Source: Secundilactobacillus kimchicus JCM 15530 (GTDB lineage Bacteria > Bacillota > Bacilli > Lactobacillales > Lactobacillaceae). Taken from it: DNA of 64,000 bases. Positions 14,749 to 21,467 of the stretch are shown here, one piece after another. Where the stretch lies: NCBI RefSeq assembly GCF_001433995.1, contig NZ_AZCX01000005.1:85427-149426 (forward strand), given 5' to 3'. The notes below the pieces were generated by a model that was not told the origin of the DNA, searched no databases, and saw nothing but the letters and a program-made list of their open reading frames with translations. The stretch's first letter is position 1. The number at the start of each line of letters is the position of its first letter. The position numbers and the translations under genes were made by a program.

Positions 14749-14883
14749 TGAATAACCTCCTGATGTTTCATGCCATTATTATACGTCCATTAAACAAACT
14801 TAACCGAATTATTTTGAAGTCGTTGACTTTAGCGAGCGCCATCGTTAACATGAGACTATTAGAAAAATGAGGGGATGATGAGA

Positions 14884-15591
14884 ATGACGGATGACCTATC
14901 ACCACGGGCTGGGGTGATGGAAGCCGTCCCGACGGCGTTTGGCTACATTGGTGTTGGGATAGCCTTTGGCATTATTGCAAAGGCGAACGGCTTTAGTTTG
15001 TTAGAAATCTTGTTACTGTCAATGGTTACATATGGGGGCTCCGCTCAGTTTATTATGGTGAGCATGATGGCGGTACACGCTAGCTTGCTGGCCATTTTAC
15101 TCTCCGTCTTTCTGGTCAATTCACGGATGATTTTAATGAGCACAGTGGTGGCGCCCTATTTTAAATCGGAATCTATGATGCGAAATATCGTTATCGGGTC
15201 CCTGATTACTGATGAAACATTCGCGTTGGGCATGAATAAGTTGAATTATACGGACCACACCTTACGATTCGGGTGGTACAACGCCGCTAATTTATTCGCG
15301 TATCTCATCTGGGCTGTGGCGACGGTGGTCGGTGGGGCATTAGGGACTTTGATTGTTGATCCCCAGAAATTTGGGATGGATTTTGCGATTGTGGCCATGT
15401 TCATCGGATTGTTGTACCTGCAAGTCATTGCCGATAAGACGATTCGGCTAACGATTCAACTGGCTGTCATTGGCTTTGTCATCGTCATTATGGTGGTCGG
15501 CCTGATTTTTATTCCCAAAAATGCACTCTTGTTGTTAGCCGCTATTTTGGGATGTTCATTTGGGGTGGTGTTAAAACATGGCGCTCGATAG
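14884..15591 (+). CDS. azlC: AzlC-family branched-chain amino acid exporter, large subunit
   Basis: Integral membrane protein (235 residues, about seven helices) of the AzlC/YgaZ family. With the small AzlD partner it exports branched-chain amino acids. Typical segments are GVMEAVPTAFGYIGVGIAFG at the N-terminus and YGGSAQFIMVSMMA near residue 52. ATG 14884 is selected because TGAGGGG lies nine bases upstream; ATGs at 14875 and 14878 are too close to it. It overlaps azlD by 14 bases. The location directly before the liv import operon puts exporter and importer of the same amino acids side by side. Confidence 0.92.
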   Translation: MTDDLSPRAGVMEAVPTAFGYIGVGIAFGIIAKANGFSLLEILLLSMVTYGGSAQFIMVSMMAVHASLLAILLSVFLVNSRMILMSTVVAPYFKSESMMRNIVIGSLITDETFALGMNKLNYTDHTLRFGWYNAANLFAYLIWAVATVVGGALGTLIVDPQKFGMDFAIVAMFIGLLYLQVIADKTIRLTIQLAVIGFVIVIMVVGLIFIPKNALLLLAAILGCSFGVVLKHGAR

Positions 15592-15904
15592 TTACGTTTT
15601 GGGGGTTATTTTAGTTAGTGGGTTAGTCACTTGGTTATCGCGAATTTTCCCTTTTGTCTTATTGAAACACTTTAGTTTACCAGCAGTGGTGATTAATTTT
15701 TTGAGCTTTGTGCCCATTAGTATTATGACCGCACTGTGGATTAATAGCTTGTTTATTCAACACTTGGGGCACTTTCCAGCAGTGGATTGGCCTAACTTTT
15801 TAGCGAGTGGGCCGACCATTTTAAGTGCCATGATTTCTAAGAACTTGATGGTAATCGTGGTTGTTGGCGTGATTTCTTTAGCAGTCATAAAGGCTGTCAT
15901 GTAA
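15578..15904 (+). CDS. azlD: AzlD-family branched-chain amino acid exporter, small subunit
   Basis: A 108-residue membrane protein with about four helices. The segment WLSRIFPFVLL near residue 20 is typical of the AzlD/YgaH family. The start codon lies inside the end of azlC, so the two are translationally coupled and presumably form the exporter complex. No clear terminator follows; the promoter of the liv leader starts about 40 bases downstream, so read-through into the liv leader is possible. Confidence 0.92.
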   Translation: MALDSYVLGVILVSGLVTWLSRIFPFVLLKHFSLPAVVINFLSFVPISIMTALWINSLFIQHLGHFPAVDWPNFLASGPTILSAMISKNLMVIVVVGVISLAVIKAVM

Positions 15905-15944
15905 GGGTTTTGAATATAATAGTGTGAATAATATTAAAAAAACG

Positions 15945-15974
15945 TTGACGTTTTCTCATTCGTATGGGTATACT
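15945..15974 (+). promoter_or_regulatory. livJ: Promoter of the liv operon leader
   Basis: TTGACG (15945-15950), 18-base spacer, TATACT (15969-15974). The transcript would start near 15981 and carry a leader of about 300 bases before livJ. Confidence 0.75.
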
Positions 15975-16015
15975 CTAATCATTAAATCAAGCAATCTTAA
16001 CGGGAGGTTACCAAC

Positions 16016-16111
16016 ATGTCAGCTCAATACACCATCATCGCGGTAACCACTACCGTTCAAGATTTAGTCTTATTATTAAAAACCAAGGACCCGACATTGA
16101 CTGCGTTGTAG
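16016..16111 (+). CDS. liv operon leader peptide (31 residues, rich in Leu/Ile/Val)
   Basis: A small frame with a strong ribosome site, GGGAGG at 16002-16007, eight bases before ATG. The peptide begins MSAQYTIIAV and contains 11 Leu/Ile/Val and 7 Thr in 31 residues. Its core codons are TTA GTC TTA TTA TTA (16064-16078), preceded by ATC ATC and GTA. It ends at TAG, about 80 bases before a strong terminator and 180 before livJ. This is the classical layout of a ribosome-sensing attenuation leader for branched-chain amino acid genes. It is too short for homology calls; the evidence is codon content, ribosome site and the structures that follow. Confidence 0.8.
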   Translation: MSAQYTIIAVTTTVQDLVLLLKTKDPTLTAL

Positions 16112-16224
16112 GACACGCCTACACCACATCAACAAGTTGAGCCCTTATTTATGTTTTTAATGATGAGGGCTTGATCAATATCAGCGGATTTCAAACCTCA
16201 TTCATTAAAGAATGAGGTTTTTTT
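16107..16224 (+). promoter_or_regulatory. Transcription attenuator of the liv operon
   Basis: Mutually exclusive pairings are visible. A hairpin TGTAGG/CCTACA (16107-16123) spans the leader stop codon. AGCCCT (16140-16145) can pair with AGGGCT (16166-16171). AATGATGAGG (16159-16168) can instead pair with CCTCA-T-TCATT (16196-16206), which is the 5' arm of the terminator. The terminator is AAACCTCATTC (16193-16203) with GAATGAGGTTT (16210-16220) and a T-run. The second pairing would be the antiterminator. Which pairing forms when ribosomes stall is inference. Confidence 0.75.
16193..16224 (+). terminator. Intrinsic terminator in the liv leader
   Basis: Perfect 11-bp stem with a six-base loop and eight T, located between leader peptide and livJ rather than after a gene. 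Confidence 0.92.
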
Positions 16225-16288
16225 ATTGCCTGACACCAAGGGAGGTCAGTTTGTCAGACAAGCTAATTACAGAAAGTGGGATGGAATA

Positions 16289-17488
16289 ATGATGAAGAAA
16301 AGTATGATGAAGAAATTGACTGGGTTTGCCACAATTGCTGCAACAGCAATGATTTTTGCAGGATGTAGTACCGCTTCAACGACCGGTTCTGGGAATAAGC
16401 AAACCGGCAATACAATTAAAATTGGCGTCAACATGGAACTTTCTGGAGCTGCCGGGGGATATGGAAATCAACAAAAGCAAGGCATCCAGATGGCAGTTGA
16501 TGAAATCAACGATGCTGGTGGGATAAACGTCAATGGCAAGAAAAAGAAAATTGATTTGATTATCAAGGATAATAAAACGGCGACGAGTACCAGTGCCTCG
16601 GTTGCTGCTCAGTTGGCTAACAACGATAAGGTTTCAGCCATCATTGGACCGGCGACGACCAATGCCGGGACCGCGCAGACGCCTAACATTACTAAGGCCG
16701 CTGTGCCAGCCTTGAGCCCATCAGCGACTGATCCTGACTATACGTTGCAAAAGAACGGCAAAGTTCAGCCCTATGTCTTTCGGGCCTGTTACCAAAACAA
16801 CTTCCAGGGAGGCACAGCCGCTAAGTTTACATACAATAATTTGAAAGCTCGTCGGGTGGCCATTTTGGGAGATAACTCAACCGATTATGGGACTGGTTTG
16901 GCGAAGGCCTTTAAGAATCAGTTTAAGGGTAAGATCGTCGCCAACCAGACGTTTGCTGCGGGGGATAAAGATTTCAACGCTGTGTTGACCTCGTTTAAGA
17001 GCAAAAAAGCGGATGCCATTTTTGTCCCTGGTTACTACTCAGAAGTTGGACTGATCATTAACCAAGCTCGTCAAGCTGGCATCAACGTCCCAATTGTGGG
17101 GACTGACGGGATGGCCGATCCTCAGTTGGTCAAAATTGCGGGTGCCAAGAACGCGACTAACGTGTACTACACCACACCATTTTCAACAATGGCCTCGAAG
17201 AAAAACCCAACGGCCGCTAAGTTTATGAAGGCTTACCAAGCTAAATATCATCAAGTCGCCCCAACCTTCTCAGCTCTGGCTTACGATTCCGTCAACATGG
17301 TGAAACAAGCCATTGAAAACGAAAAGTCAGCAGACTCGAAGAAAGTGGCGGCCGGTCTGGCAAAAATTAAGAACTTTGACGGTGTCACTGGGACCATTAC
17401 GATTGATAAGGATCACAACGCTCAAAAGCCAATTGCCATCGAAACTTTGAAGAATGGTAAGGTCGTTAACTCAGTTTCAATTAAGTAG
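16289..17488 (+). CDS. livJ: Branched-chain amino acid ABC transporter, substrate-binding lipoprotein
   Basis: A 399-residue type I periplasmic-binding-fold protein that delivers branched-chain amino acids to LivHM. Residues 1-26 form a lipoprotein signal (MMKKSMMKKL..., lipobox FAGC, lipidated Cys26). The mature part shows IKIGVNMELSGAAGGYG, typical of LivJ/LivK. The start at 16289 gives the correct signal peptide; the frame extends back to 16226 without support. Its own ribosome site (GGGATGG) is modest. A mini-frame from TTG 16251, with AAGGGAGGT close ahead, ends at TAA 16287-16289 overlapping this ATG, so translational coupling is possible. Transcription is probably governed by the upstream attenuator. 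Confidence 0.93.
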   Translation: MMKKSMMKKLTGFATIAATAMIFAGCSTASTTGSGNKQTGNTIKIGVNMELSGAAGGYGNQQKQGIQMAVDEINDAGGINVNGKKKKIDLIIKDNKTATSTSASVAAQLANNDKVSAIIGPATTNAGTAQTPNITKAAVPALSPSATDPDYTLQKNGKVQPYVFRACYQNNFQGGTAAKFTYNNLKARRVAILGDNSTDYGTGLAKAFKNQFKGKIVANQTFAAGDKDFNAVLTSFKSKKADAIFVPGYYSEVGLIINQARQAGINVPIVGTDGMADPQLVKIAGAKNATNVYYTTPFSTMASKKNPTAAKFMKAYQAKYHQVAPTFSALAYDSVNMVKQAIENEKSADSKKVAAGLAKIKNFDGVTGTITIDKDHNAQKPIAIETLKNGKVVNSVSIK

Positions 17489-17510
17489 GCTATGAATGGA
17501 GGCCAGTACA

Positions 17511-18389
17511 TTGCAAACATTTTTCCAACAACTGATTAACGGCCTCTCCCTAGGTAGCATATACGCCCTTTTGGCGTTGGGCTATACGATGGTGTACGGC
17601 ATTATCAAGTTGATCAACTTCGCACACGGGGACATTTACATGCTGGGTGCGTTTTGGGGCTATTACGTCATTAACTTTTGGCACTTTAACTTCCTGTTTG
17701 CCCTCCTTTCTGCGATGCTGGTGGGGGCTGTTGCTGGGGTGATTATTGAATACTTCGCTTATCGCCCATTACGCCACGCGCCACGGATTACCGCGTTGAT
17801 TACCGCGATTGGCGTCTCATTTCTCTTGGAAAACGGGATGTCGTACCTATACGGGTCAACGCCTAGGGACTTCCCGCAAATTATCGAGCCCGTGAACTAT
17901 CACGTTTTCGGAGTCCTGATTTCCAACATTCAGATCCTGATTCTGGTCACCGCCTGCCTGCTCATGGTGATCCTACAAGTGATCATTAAGAAAACCAAGA
18001 TGGGAAAGGCCATGCGGGCCGTTTCTGTCGACCCGGATGCTGCCGAATTGGTGGGGATTAACCTGAATCGCACGATTTCATTTACCTTCGCATTGGGCTC
18101 TTCAATGGCCGGTGCCGCTGGGGTGCTGATTGGCTTGTACTACAACTCAATCGACCCATTGATGGGGATGACGCCAGGGATTAAGGCTTTCGTGGCGGCC
18201 GTCGTTGGCGGGATTGGATCCGTACCAGGGGCGTCAATCGGCGGCTTTTTGATTGGCCTTTTGGAAACGCTCGTTCAATCGGTCGGCCTGTCGGCATATA
18301 AGGATGCCGCAGTCTACTTCGTCTTAATTGTGATTTTGCTGGTTTTGCCGGCTGGAATCTTTGGCAAAAATATCAAAGAGAAAGTGTAG
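17511..18389 (+). CDS. livH: Branched-chain amino acid ABC transporter permease LivH
   Basis: A 292-residue permease with about eight membrane helices. NGLSLGSIYALLALGYTMVYGI and INFAHGDIYMLGAF are hallmark LivH stretches, and the cytoplasmic loop MRAVSVDPDAAELVGIN contacts the ATPase. TTG at 17511 is the likely start because GGAGG lies eight bases ahead; the ATG at 17496 sits upstream of that site. The gap from livJ is about 20 bases and the gene nearly abuts livM, so the five liv genes form one operon. Confidence 0.93.
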   Translation: MQTFFQQLINGLSLGSIYALLALGYTMVYGIIKLINFAHGDIYMLGAFWGYYVINFWHFNFLFALLSAMLVGAVAGVIIEYFAYRPLRHAPRITALITAIGVSFLLENGMSYLYGSTPRDFPQIIEPVNYHVFGVLISNIQILILVTACLLMVILQVIIKKTKMGKAMRAVSVDPDAAELVGINLNRTISFTFALGSSMAGAAGVLIGLYYNSIDPLMGMTPGIKAFVAAVVGGIGSVPGASIGGFLIGLLETLVQSVGLSAYKDAAVYFVLIVILLVLPAGIFGKNIKEKV

Positions 18390-18398
18390 GTGACGATT

Positions 18399-19358
18399 TT
18401 GAAGGCCAATTTTAAATACAATGTGAGCTGGCTTATCATCATGGTCGCTGGCTTTTATCTGATGAACACTCTGATGTTGATGGGCATTATTGATTCCTTC
18501 ATTGAAAATATGTTGGTTGTGATTGGCATCAACATTATTCTGGCGACCGGGTTGAATCTGGTCATCGGTTTTGCGGGGCAGTTTTCGTTGGGACACGCTG
18601 GATTTATGGCCATTGGGGCGTACGCGACGGCCATTATCACGACTAATTCTGCCACGGCCGGTGGGTTTTATACTTCCATCGTGGTCGGTGTCATCATTGC
18701 GATTATCGCCGCTATTATCGTTGGTGTCCCAACGTTGCGGCTTCGAGGGGATTACTTAGCCATTGCGACGATGGGCGCCGCTGAAATTATCCGAATTATC
18801 ATTAATAATCTACAGATCACCAACGGACCGTCTGGGATGTTTAATATCCCACAATTCGCCACTTGGCCGGTTGTGTACATCATGGTTTGCGTCACGACAA
18901 TTTTAATCGCAAACTTTGTCCGGAGTCGGGCTGGTCGCGCGATTAAATCAGTTCGGGAAGATGAAATTGCGGCTGAGTCTGCCGGAATTAACACGACCAA
19001 TTGGAAGCTGGCTGCCTTTGTCTTTGGGGCCGCGACTGCCGCTATTGCGGGGTCGTTAGACGCCTCGTACCTCCAAACGATTGCCCCAACCAACTTTGGC
19101 ATTATGGAATCCATTTCCATTTTGATTATTGTGGTCTTAGGTGGGGTTGGTAGCCTGACCGGAAGCGTTGTGGCCGCCGTTGTTCTGGGGATCTTGGATA
19201 CGGCCTTGCAAAATTTTGGGACGTTGCGGATGGTGATTTATGCGGCTGCCTTGATCTTGATTATGATTTTTAAACCAACCGGATTACTGGGGAGTCATGA
19301 ATTGTCATTTAAACACCTATTTTCTGGCACTAAGCGAAAGGGGCGTGTCCGCTCGTGA
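18399..19358 (+). CDS. livM: Branched-chain amino acid ABC transporter permease LivM
   Basis: A 319-residue second permease with about ten helices. GLNLVIGFAGQFSLGHAGFMAIGAYA near residue 55 is the LivM signature and SVREDEIAAESAGIN is the coupling loop. TTG 18399 has AGGTG six bases ahead; GTG 18390, directly after the livH stop, is an alternative without a site. The stop overlaps the livG start. It pairs with LivH to form the channel. Confidence 0.93.
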   Translation: MKANFKYNVSWLIIMVAGFYLMNTLMLMGIIDSFIENMLVVIGINIILATGLNLVIGFAGQFSLGHAGFMAIGAYATAIITTNSATAGGFYTSIVVGVIIAIIAAIIVGVPTLRLRGDYLAIATMGAAEIIRIIINNLQITNGPSGMFNIPQFATWPVVYIMVCVTTILIANFVRSRAGRAIKSVREDEIAAESAGINTTNWKLAAFVFGAATAAIAGSLDASYLQTIAPTNFGIMESISILIIVVLGGVGSLTGSVVAAVVLGILDTALQNFGTLRMVIYAAALILIMIFKPTGLLGSHELSFKHLFSGTKRKGRVRS

Positions 19359-20137
19359 GTACGATTTTAAAAGTTGATGATTTGGTCAAGAATTTCGGCG
19401 GACTCACGGCCGTCTCAGACGTGTCGATGACCCTTAATGACGATGAACTCGTGGCCCTAATTGGCCCAAATGGCGCGGGAAAGACGACGCTGTTCAACCT
19501 GTTAACGGGCGTGATTACGCCTAGTTCTGGTGCCATTAGTTTTCGCGGTCCCAAGGGAACGGTGACGTTAAACGGCAAAAAGGCGTACCAAATCGCCAAC
19601 CTTGGACTGGCCCGCACCTTTCAAAATATTCGGTTGTTTAAGGATCTGACCGTTTTGGATAACGTGCTCGTTGCCATGACAAGTCAGTACAAGGAGGGCT
19701 TGCTATCGACGTTATTCCGCCTGCCAAGCTACTATAAAAAAGAGGCTAAAATTGCCAAAGAAGCGACGGAACTGCTCGCAATCTTTGATCTACAAGAATC
19801 GGTCGATGTTTTAGCCAAAAACTTGCCGTATGGGATTCAACGACGGCTAGAAATTGTTCGAGCCTTGGCGATGAAACCGCAAATCCTGTTCTTAGACGAA
19901 CCCGCCGCCGGGATGAATCCGGAAGAGACCGCTGATTTGACACGGTTGATTAAAAAAGTCCAACGGGAATTCCATATCACAGTGGTGTTGATTGAACACG
20001 ATATGTCGCTGGTCATGAACTTGGCCGAACGGATCTACGTGCTCGATCATGGCGCCATGCTGGCTCAGGGAACCCCAACTGAAATTAAGCAAAATCCGGC
20101 TGTTATTAAGGCCTATCTTGGGGAGGAGGTATCTTGA
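19355..20137 (+). CDS. livG: Branched-chain amino acid ABC transporter ATPase LivG
   Basis: A 260-residue ATPase of the Liv importer. Walker A is GPNGAGKTTLFN (about 37-46), the family insertion after it is long as in LivG, the signature region reads LPYGIQRRLEI, Walker B is LFLDEPAAGMNP and the H-loop is LIEHDM. GTG at 19355 overlaps the livM stop by four bases and follows AAAGGGG. It overlaps livF by one base. LivG and LivF form the nucleotide-binding heterodimer. Confidence 0.93.
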   Translation: MSTILKVDDLVKNFGGLTAVSDVSMTLNDDELVALIGPNGAGKTTLFNLLTGVITPSSGAISFRGPKGTVTLNGKKAYQIANLGLARTFQNIRLFKDLTVLDNVLVAMTSQYKEGLLSTLFRLPSYYKKEAKIAKEATELLAIFDLQESVDVLAKNLPYGIQRRLEIVRALAMKPQILFLDEPAAGMNPEETADLTRLIKKVQREFHITVVLIEHDMSLVMNLAERIYVLDHGAMLAQGTPTEIKQNPAVIKAYLGEEVS

Positions 20138-20841
20138 TGCTGAGCGTTGATCAATTAGTTGTAAACTACGGTGTCATTAACGCTGTTAAAGGCGTTAGTT
20201 TCGACATTAACGAAGGTGAAATCGTGTCGTTGATTGGCGCGAACGGCGCTGGAAAAACCACCATTCTCAAGACTGTTTCCGGCCTCTTACGGCCAGCGTC
20301 AGGAACAGTGACGTACGAGGGTCATGAGATTCAACGGGAAAAGGCGCCGAAAATTGTGGCCCAAGGAATCTCTCAAGTGCCAGAGGGGCGGCATATTTTT
20401 GCGGGCTTGACGGTGAAGGAAAACCTCCAAATGGGGGCGTTTCTCCAGAGCGATCGCGCAAATATTGCCACCACTTTTCAAACCGTGTACGACCGGTTCC
20501 CGGTGTTAAAGGAACGCCAAAATCAGGATGCGGCGACACTATCCGGTGGGGAACAGCAAATGTTGGCGATGGGGCGGGCGCTGATGTCACGGCCGAAGCT
20601 GCTGTTGCTTGACGAACCGTCAATGGGGCTTGCTCCCATTTTCATTAACGAAATTTTTGATATTATTACGGCCATTAAAGAACAGGGGACAACAGTGCTC
20701 CTCATTGAACAAAACGCCAAAAAGGCCTTGTCGATTTCTGATCGGGGTTACGTTCTCGCATCAGGTGAAGTCAAGATGAGTGGTACGGGCTCGGAGTTGC
20801 TGGCTAATGCGGATGTTCAAAAGGCCTATCTAGGAGGGTAA
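20137..20841 (+). CDS. livF: Branched-chain amino acid ABC transporter ATPase LivF
   Basis: A 234-residue second ATPase. It has Walker A GANGAGKTT, the LivF motif VPEGRHIFAGLTVKENL, signature LSGGEQQM, Walker B LLLDEPSMGLAP and H-loop LIEQNAKKAL with Gln in place of His as is usual in LivF. The start is ATG 20137 in TGATG, overlapping the livG stop, with AGGAGG seven bases upstream. Two bases after its stop comes the CBS/ACT gene. Confidence 0.94.
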   Translation: MLSVDQLVVNYGVINAVKGVSFDINEGEIVSLIGANGAGKTTILKTVSGLLRPASGTVTYEGHEIQREKAPKIVAQGISQVPEGRHIFAGLTVKENLQMGAFLQSDRANIATTFQTVYDRFPVLKERQNQDAATLSGGEQQMLAMGRALMSRPKLLLLDEPSMGLAPIFINEIFDIITAIKEQGTTVLLIEQNAKKALSISDRGYVLASGEVKMSGTGSELLANADVQKAYLGG

Positions 20842-20843
20842 AA

Positions 20844-21467
20844 ATGACGGTTGCAGATTACATGACAGATAAAGTGATTACCGTTAATCCAGACACGTTA
20901 GTCAGCGTGGCGGTTTCGATGATGAAGGACAACCAGATTCATCGGTTACCCGTCATTGAAACTGGGAAGTTAGTGGGGCTGGTTACGGCTGGCATCGTGG
21001 AAGCCGCGTCACCGTCAGCAGCCACTAGTTTGTCGATTTACGAGGTCAACTATATTTTCAACAAAATGACCGTGGGTGAAATCATGGAAAAAGAAGTCCA
21101 AACGATTTCTTACGACGCCATTTTGGAAGATGGAATTTACAAAATGCGCCAACACGATATTGGCGTCCTCCCCGTTATGGACGGGGAACAGGTTGTCGGT
21201 ATTTTGACGACAAACGACATCTTAGATGCGTTTTTGGACATCACTGATTACCAACAGAAAGACACGGTGGTGCAAATTGTCATCGAGCAGGACAGCACTG
21301 GTATTATTTTTAAAATTGGGCAACTCATGGCGGACAATGATCTCAACATTCAAACGTTAATGGTGACCCGGCACATGGGCGAGATTGTGATTGAAATGCA
21401 CGTTGATCCGTCTGATCAAATTTCGGTTCGAGCCGTCCTTGAATCAGCTGGGTTCACCGTCCGGTAG
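20844..21467 (+). CDS. AcuB-like protein with two CBS domains and an ACT domain
   Basis: A 207-residue cytosolic protein. CBS1 covers about residues 1-55 (VADYMTDKVITV, HRLPVIE), CBS2 about 75-130 (MEKEVQTISYDA, VLPVMDGEQVVGILTTNDIL), and an ACT-like fold about 142-205 (VVQIVIEQDSTGIIFKIGQLMAD). CBS pairs bind adenine nucleotides and ACT domains bind amino acids, so this is a good candidate sensor acting on the transporter or on transcription. It follows livF by two bases with AGGAGGG ahead of its ATG and is surely the last gene of the liv operon. Its action has not been inferred from more than context. Confidence 0.85.
   Translation: MTVADYMTDKVITVNPDTLVSVAVSMMKDNQIHRLPVIETGKLVGLVTAGIVEAASPSAATSLSIYEVNYIFNKMTVGEIMEKEVQTISYDAILEDGIYKMRQHDIGVLPVMDGEQVVGILTTNDILDAFLDITDYQQKDTVVQIVIEQDSTGIIFKIGQLMADNDLNIQTLMVTRHMGEIVIEMHVDPSDQISVRAVLESAGFTVR

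Follow-up and report, generated by a model that had tools for sequence, protein, structure and literature searches.

The window examined here is a 64,000-nt stretch of contig NZ_AZCX01000005.1 from Secundilactobacillus kimchicus JCM 15530; the importer genes and leader features described below lie on its plus strand. A livJ-like gene for a branched-chain amino acid binding lipoprotein (16289..17488; Pfam PF13458, with NCBIfam PRK15404 below cut-off) is followed by livH (17496-18389), livM (18390-19358), livG (19355-20137) and livF (20134-20841), recognised by their reading frames and domain matches. Together, livJHMGF likely encode a branched-chain amino acid importer. The importer leader is immediately preceded by co-oriented azlC and azlD (14875-15904), likely branched-chain amino acid exporter genes. 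Close behind livF comes a protein (20844-21467) that carries two CBS repeats and matches ACT weakly, below the Pfam cut-off; it may serve the importer as a regulatory subunit.

Between azlCD and livJHMGF (16289-20841) sit a promoter-like site, a small reading frame and a terminator, which the original prediction took for a leader-peptide attenuator. Direct reading confirmed its inventory. An SD sequence, GGGAGG (16002-16007), precedes a frame of 31 codons and a stop (16016-16111) encoding MSAQYTIIAVTTTVQDLVLLLKTKDPTLTAL, in which 11 of 31 residues are Leu, Ile or Val and seven are Thr. The codons at 16064-16078 read TTA GTC TTA TTA TTA (L17 V18 L19 L20 L21). A 6-bp hairpin covers the stop codon (16107-16112 with 16118-16123), and a perfect 11-bp terminator (16193-16203/16210-16220) runs into seven T at 16218-16224. 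Terminator-like sites number two in 15600-16500 against 0.6 expected, and the fold of the leader as a whole is far from random (z = -7.9; equalled by 0 of 200 shuffles). The supposedly good promoter (TTGACG-18 nt-TATACT, 15945-15974) is present, scoring 10 of 12, and 34 of 42 related leaders match at 10-12 of 12 within 110 nt 5' of the leader start; by itself, however, such a site is not unusual, with three promoter-like sites observed versus 2.5 expected.

Folding and comparative tests point to a more elaborate architecture than a terminator with one competing segment. The 5' arm of a hairpin, P1 (15994-16012), contains the leader SD and pairs with 16042-16063, the codons immediately 5' of the Leu run. 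Strand A (16068-16083), made of the Leu codons, pairs with strand B (16153-16175), the Leu codons facing 16153-16168. Strand A'' (16085-16095) pairs with strand A' (16136-16149) through 16136-16146, with one A.C mismatch retained in 41 of 42 leaders. A' can alternatively pair with B, and B with A, A' or C. Strand C (16193-16206) includes the terminator 5' arm and forms the antiterminator with B, while strand D (16210-16224) comprises the terminator 3' arm and the T run. The pairing originally proposed, of 16159-16168 with the terminator 5' arm at 16196-16206, can form (10 pairs, one bulge), but with the terminator alone it is insufficient as the whole wiring: A' competes for the same strand and takes it whatever the Leu codons do, so A'' is needed to resolve the competition. 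The small hairpin over the stop codon (16107-16123) is likewise present and yet dispensable in the model, since related leaders before leuA stop right after their Leu run.

The ribosome's progress was modelled as a walk in which the transcript ends just before D and the ribosome masks it up to 12 nt beyond the first base of the A site. In the window, 12.4-13.9 B:C pairs are expected when the A site holds one of codons -2 to +3 relative to L17, and 0.6-4.0 pairs from +4 to the stop (2.5 at the fifth codon; 1.7 without a ribosome). The antiterminator is thus supported by the first four codons of the run and the two codons before it, and not by the fifth, L21. The difference between stalled and read-through states, 11.95 pairs, was reached by 0 of 500 dinucleotide shuffles. 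Minimum-energy states comprise P1, A:B, A'':A' and the terminator without a ribosome; A'':A' and B:C with a stalled ribosome before D is made; and A':B and the terminator with the ribosome at the stop. Competing-structure folding of the leader predicts a mutually exclusive terminator and antiterminator.

From these states, a mechanism can be proposed. Untranslated RNA would hide the leader SD in P1, form A:B and A'':A' and allow the terminator C:D to fold, leaving the importer off. A ribosome held up on a Leu codon would cover A while A'':A' holds A'; this pairing would free B, which could then capture C and switch the operon on. With sufficient leucine, the ribosome would move over A'' and release A', so that A':B and C:D form and transcription is again off. 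P1 would likely close behind the pioneer ribosome, limiting later loading.

The leader is retained in relatives. A LivJ scan of genome contigs listed 80 of 396 loci, 42 of them from Lactobacillaceae in eight genera; one of these (L029) was set aside, having only 36 nt 5' of livJ. Among the matches listed, a leader frame with SD and Leu run precedes livJ in all 41 named Lactobacillaceae loci with adequate upstream DNA, as it does in the window, giving a set of 42 leaders (that of L020 was identified by hand, outside the motif). Within the same genus, LivJ occurs in 12 of 15 genomes and the leader in all 12; in the family sample, LivJ is present in 113 of 397 genomes. In one genome (L014/L015, G013:C75), livJ is split in two matches, the second with internal TGA and TAA, and the leader before it is intact.

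A covariance model built from 36 of the 42 leaders (R1) was run on 18 further livJ loci with adequate upstream DNA and matched them all; 14 of these duplicate training records and four are new. Among 92 more distant or second-copy LivJ loci of the family (L116-L207), 50 exceeded 31 bits on the gene's strand, nine of these already being in the 42-leader alignment, and 42 scored 31 bits or less; about half are thus without the leader. Two loci at 27-28 bits (L143, L185) were not counted, because their scores were no better than the best wrong-strand scores of 30.0 and 29.9. In one other genus, five LivJ loci that R1 does not match (L199, L202-L205) carry a different leucine leader that ends in SSQALLLLLML and a stop and is accompanied by terminator-like hairpins. 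Outside Lactobacillaceae, none of 38 livJ-like loci (L059-L096) scored above 19.9 bits with R1. Spread of the leader by plasmid was considered and rejected, as 15940-16300 had no match in the plasmid collection.

What the peptide senses can be narrowed by comparing these leaders. Three consecutive leucines occur in 42 of 42, encoded as TTA TTA TTA (29), TTG TTG TTG (7), CTA CTA CTA (4) or CTC CTA CTC (2). Residues flanking them are well kept among livJ leaders and the N-terminal parts vary; in a count over 41 peptides, L020 excluded, the lowest values for any one peptide are four Leu, one Thr, and no Ile or Val. The leucine triplet is constant, whereas conservation is lacking for Ile, Val and Thr, which makes leucine the likely signal, most likely on its own. 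The suggestion that the Thr codons hint at a second sensed amino acid falls on the same ground, and sensing of Ile or Val was rejected with it.

The pairings were assessed in the same alignment. A:B is kept in 88.9% of cells (best slid control 60.3%), A'':A' in 80.9% (44.7%), A':B in 93.7% (at most 58.6%), B:C in 93.0% (at most 58.3%) and C:D in 97.4% (at most 54.3%). Arms from the same leader pair more strongly than arms drawn from other genera in 42 of 42 leaders for A'':A', 41 for A:B, 38 for C:D, and 36 each for A':B and B:C. For A'':A', 28 cells changed on both sides versus a shuffle mean of 7.4. Pairs altered in both arms were no more numerous than in shuffles for A'':A', A':B, A:B or B:C, so support comes from the cell counts, the slid controls and the comparison of own with cross-genus arms. 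Positions 16137 (A'), 16094 (A'') and 16174 (B) covary, reading A-T-A in 29 leaders, G-C-G in six and otherwise in seven. On this comparative evidence, the small frame and the competing stems appear conserved, with covariation, across eight genera, contrary to the lack of conservation that would have refuted the original prediction. Spacing between the final Leu-run codon and AGGAC in A'' is also constrained, at 7 nt in 30 livJ leaders, 6 nt in nine and 4 nt in three.

These observations bear on the possibility that a ligand riboswitch or T-box senses leucine or tRNA-Leu directly and that the small frame plays no part. Such a sensor would fit a leader with strong structure ahead of an amino acid gene, and T-boxes control histidine transporters in Lactobacillales (PMC9413887). 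Against it, no Rfam family reached the gathering score in the window or in 19 related loci, and a relaxed search of the leader returned five weak, unrelated names with no T-box among them. The leucine triplet is constant in 42 of 42 leaders despite codon changes, and the spacing between the Leu codons and A'' is constrained; a sensor independent of the frame would require neither. We therefore consider direct sensing very improbable.

Ribosome-mediated attenuation of the importer also gains from the walk over all 42 livJ leaders, with limits. In 28 leaders at least three B:C pairs are lost as the ribosome advances, while 14 change by fewer than three, seven of these by less than one; in two (L030, L057) B:C hardly forms at all. 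The simple energy model thus leaves some species unexplained.

The same leader occurs before other genes. R1 finds a second place in the S. kimchicus genome itself (leader at G000:C23:282840-282969); leuA and leuB follow, then the start of a frame identified by eye as leuC-like. The leader encodes MTTAQQQHQSTNFETALLALLL and a stop, and its walk from 13.4 to 0.6 pairs is cleaner than that of the livJ leader. Across 17 leaders not associated with livJ, 15 lose at least five B:C pairs as the ribosome advances, and L242 and L257 show no switch. RNAalifold applied to 13 leuA/leuB-type leaders recovered A:B, A'':A' and C:D unprompted. A second covariance model built from these 13 (R2) matches 107 of 397 family genomes and gives the window leader 39.6 bits. 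Away from livJ leaders, the gene next to 70 R2 places (some weaker places left out) is leuA-like in 51, leuB-like in 11, an MFS carrier in three, and other or unclear in five. In single cases the next gene encodes an Opp4A-like peptide-binding protein (L244) or an iron-type dehydrogenase (L248, L254). Since the same leader precedes leucine-synthesis genes in its own genome and in relatives, branched-chain uptake and leucine synthesis are likely tuned together.

Several of these places carry features of their own. The LeuA-like protein at G000:C23 (L238:561-1721) has 387 aa, matches about the first 380 of the 494-523 positions of leuA profiles, and contains the Pfam catalytic and HCS_D2 domains only. 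The C-terminal domain of LeuA is the leucine-feedback domain; if the protein is without it, leucine control there could rest mainly on the leader. MFS carriers with a leucine leader were seen at L241/L259, L302 and L319, the latter two 58.5-76% identical to L259 over the compared stretch. Their best NCBIfam name is aromatic acid/H+ symport-like, below cut-off, and the substrate may be leucine-related. Among the variant leaders at L313, L320 and L322, MDKVIVVNSTLAILAVILI and a stop lie about 210 nt upstream of a gene for a polar amino acid binding protein, and MTKVSKLAQTSATVVVVLLLS and a stop precede a frame without an NCBIfam match, possibly reflecting a change of sensed amino acid.

The leucine-synthesis leaders help to judge whether the peptide might instead act as an arrest peptide, its conserved Q-D/N-L-A/V-LLL-K-x-K-D end stalling the ribosome as a nascent chain in response to leucine or a drug rather than at empty Leu codons. 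Within livJ leaders, the residues around the leucines are indeed well kept. However, leuA and leuB peptides end at the leucine triplet with a stop, Lactobacillus livJ peptides continue with ERRT and a stop, and N-terminal parts vary. The conserved DNA around AGGAC lies in different frames and fits the A'':A' pairing; of the 17 leaders before other genes, 15 have it 5-8 nt from the Leu run, L248 and L254 counting 13 because an ATG splits their Leu run. Nascent-chain arrest thus seems about as improbable as direct sensing by the RNA. That the terminator merely ends azlCD transcription, the small frame being there by chance, is hardly credible: azlCD does end at 15904, 289 nt 5' of the terminator on the same strand, but azlD and the leader are separated by a conserved promoter-like site, and the leader is kept before livJ in eight genera and recurs before leuA and leuB.

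The reading of the leader as a leucine-sensing, ribosome-mediated transcription attenuator of livJHMGF is accordingly the one preferred here, with a probability of about 90% as a prediction from modelling; we infer its pairings from sequence, covariation and folding. The locus combines an SD and a frame with a run of codons for the pathway's amino acid, a mutually exclusive terminator and antiterminator, and a fold that, in the model, depends on ribosome position in the window and 28 of 42 leaders (seven of 42 show no switch). Both the comparative and the folding tests thus agree with the original prediction of ribosome-sensing attenuation of a branched-chain amino acid importer.

P1 may add a further layer to this attenuator by occluding the leader's own SD. 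It shows the largest difference between own and cross-genus arms of any pairing (-19.95 versus -11.82 kcal/mol; own arms stronger in 41 of 42). Predicted mean access to the SD falls from 0.49 before the P1 3' arm is made to 0.15 after, with a drop of more than 0.2 in 32 of 42 leaders; in the window, P1 lowers it little, from 0.42 to 0.31. In leaders of other genes, own arms exceed the cross mean in 13 of 16, and P1 is weak in L242, L243, L251 and L256.

Beyond Lactobacillaceae, related leaders mostly stand before synthesis genes. R2 matches 114 of 385 Lactobacillales genomes, Lactobacillaceae included, and an IlvD-like frame follows 12 of 15 loci outside that family (L336 and L331 were checked with NCBIfam). 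One leader (L343) precedes a LivJ-like protein with 34% identity to that of the window. Of 14 related loci in other families of Lactobacillales, Rfam assigns four to rli60; the window has no match to rli60 (RF02414) at the gathering score or in the relaxed leader search. R2 gives the four rli60 loci 44.4-50.2 bits. R1 alone is marginal there (16.1-21.6 bits), and the likely common descent of the livJ leader and rli60, argued from sequence models, therefore rests on R2. In the two rli60 loci computed (L330, L336), A'':A' and a switch from B:C to A':B are predicted, together with a P1-like pairing of -10.4 and -12.6 kcal/mol. Two other leaders, L337 and L342, show no switch in the walk.

Lactobacillaceae are known for amino acid auxotrophy, and a single RNA design shared by liv, leu and individual other operons would provide them with a repressor-free leucine regulon, through which unnamed carriers could be tied to leucine by their leaders. 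Evenly balanced, in our judgement, is the broader proposal that these leaders and Rli60 form one Lactobacillales-wide class of leucine or branched-chain amino acid attenuators. It would unite the five-strand switch (A, A'', A', B, and C with D) with an SD-hiding hairpin, strongest in Lactobacillaceae and predicted in two rli60 loci, so that mainly the pioneer ribosome reads each transcript, and its regulon, free of a regulator protein, would join uptake (livJHMGF, the oligopeptide-binding protein, the MFS carrier) to synthesis (leuA, leuB, ilvD).

A literature search, not exhaustive and covering parts of the sources, found no description of a leader-peptide attenuator before liv or leu genes of Lactobacillaceae. 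In the literature surveyed, Gram-positive leader-peptide control of branched-chain genes is described for biosynthesis. For streptococcal livKHMGF, CcpA and CodY are listed (PMC3616900). The 'livJ motif' SRC-36-2, a riboswitch candidate found 5' of LIVBP-like genes mostly in Streptomyces (PMC11109978), appears unrelated to the window leader, judged by its description.

The closest described system is Rli60, the ilv-leu leader of Listeria monocytogenes, for which reporter and mutant data support ribosome-mediated attenuation (PMC5864092). It shares with the predicted livJ attenuator a short leader peptide and branched-chain target genes, the Rfam-called rli60 loci encoding VITILLL and a stop; unlike the livJ leader, Rli60 controls synthesis (ilvD) rather than an importer, and its peptide has Val and Ile besides Leu. 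The leucine-rich attenuator of Staphylococcus aureus ilvD, where expression rises on Leu depletion and with leader mutations (PMC5794164), is also a Gram-positive leader peptide with Leu codons, likened here by description. It serves a synthesis operon, and its antiterminator differs in retaining the terminator stem and pairing with its U tail. Leader peptides rich in branched-chain amino acids, with terminators, are predicted in Lactococcus lactis and Streptococcus (PMC5794164, PMC6123439); these, again likened by description, differ in standing before biosynthesis genes. Histidine leader-peptide attenuators are predicted in Firmicutes, in some genomes acting on the his operon, a histidine transporter or both (PMC2965389, PMC9413887). 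An importer target therefore has some precedent, although those leaders use histidine codons and belong to other lineages. As far as the literature search shows, what is new here is the liv importer target in Lactobacillaceae, the wiring with an SD-covering hairpin and the sharing of the leader with leu genes; the kind of attenuator is already known.
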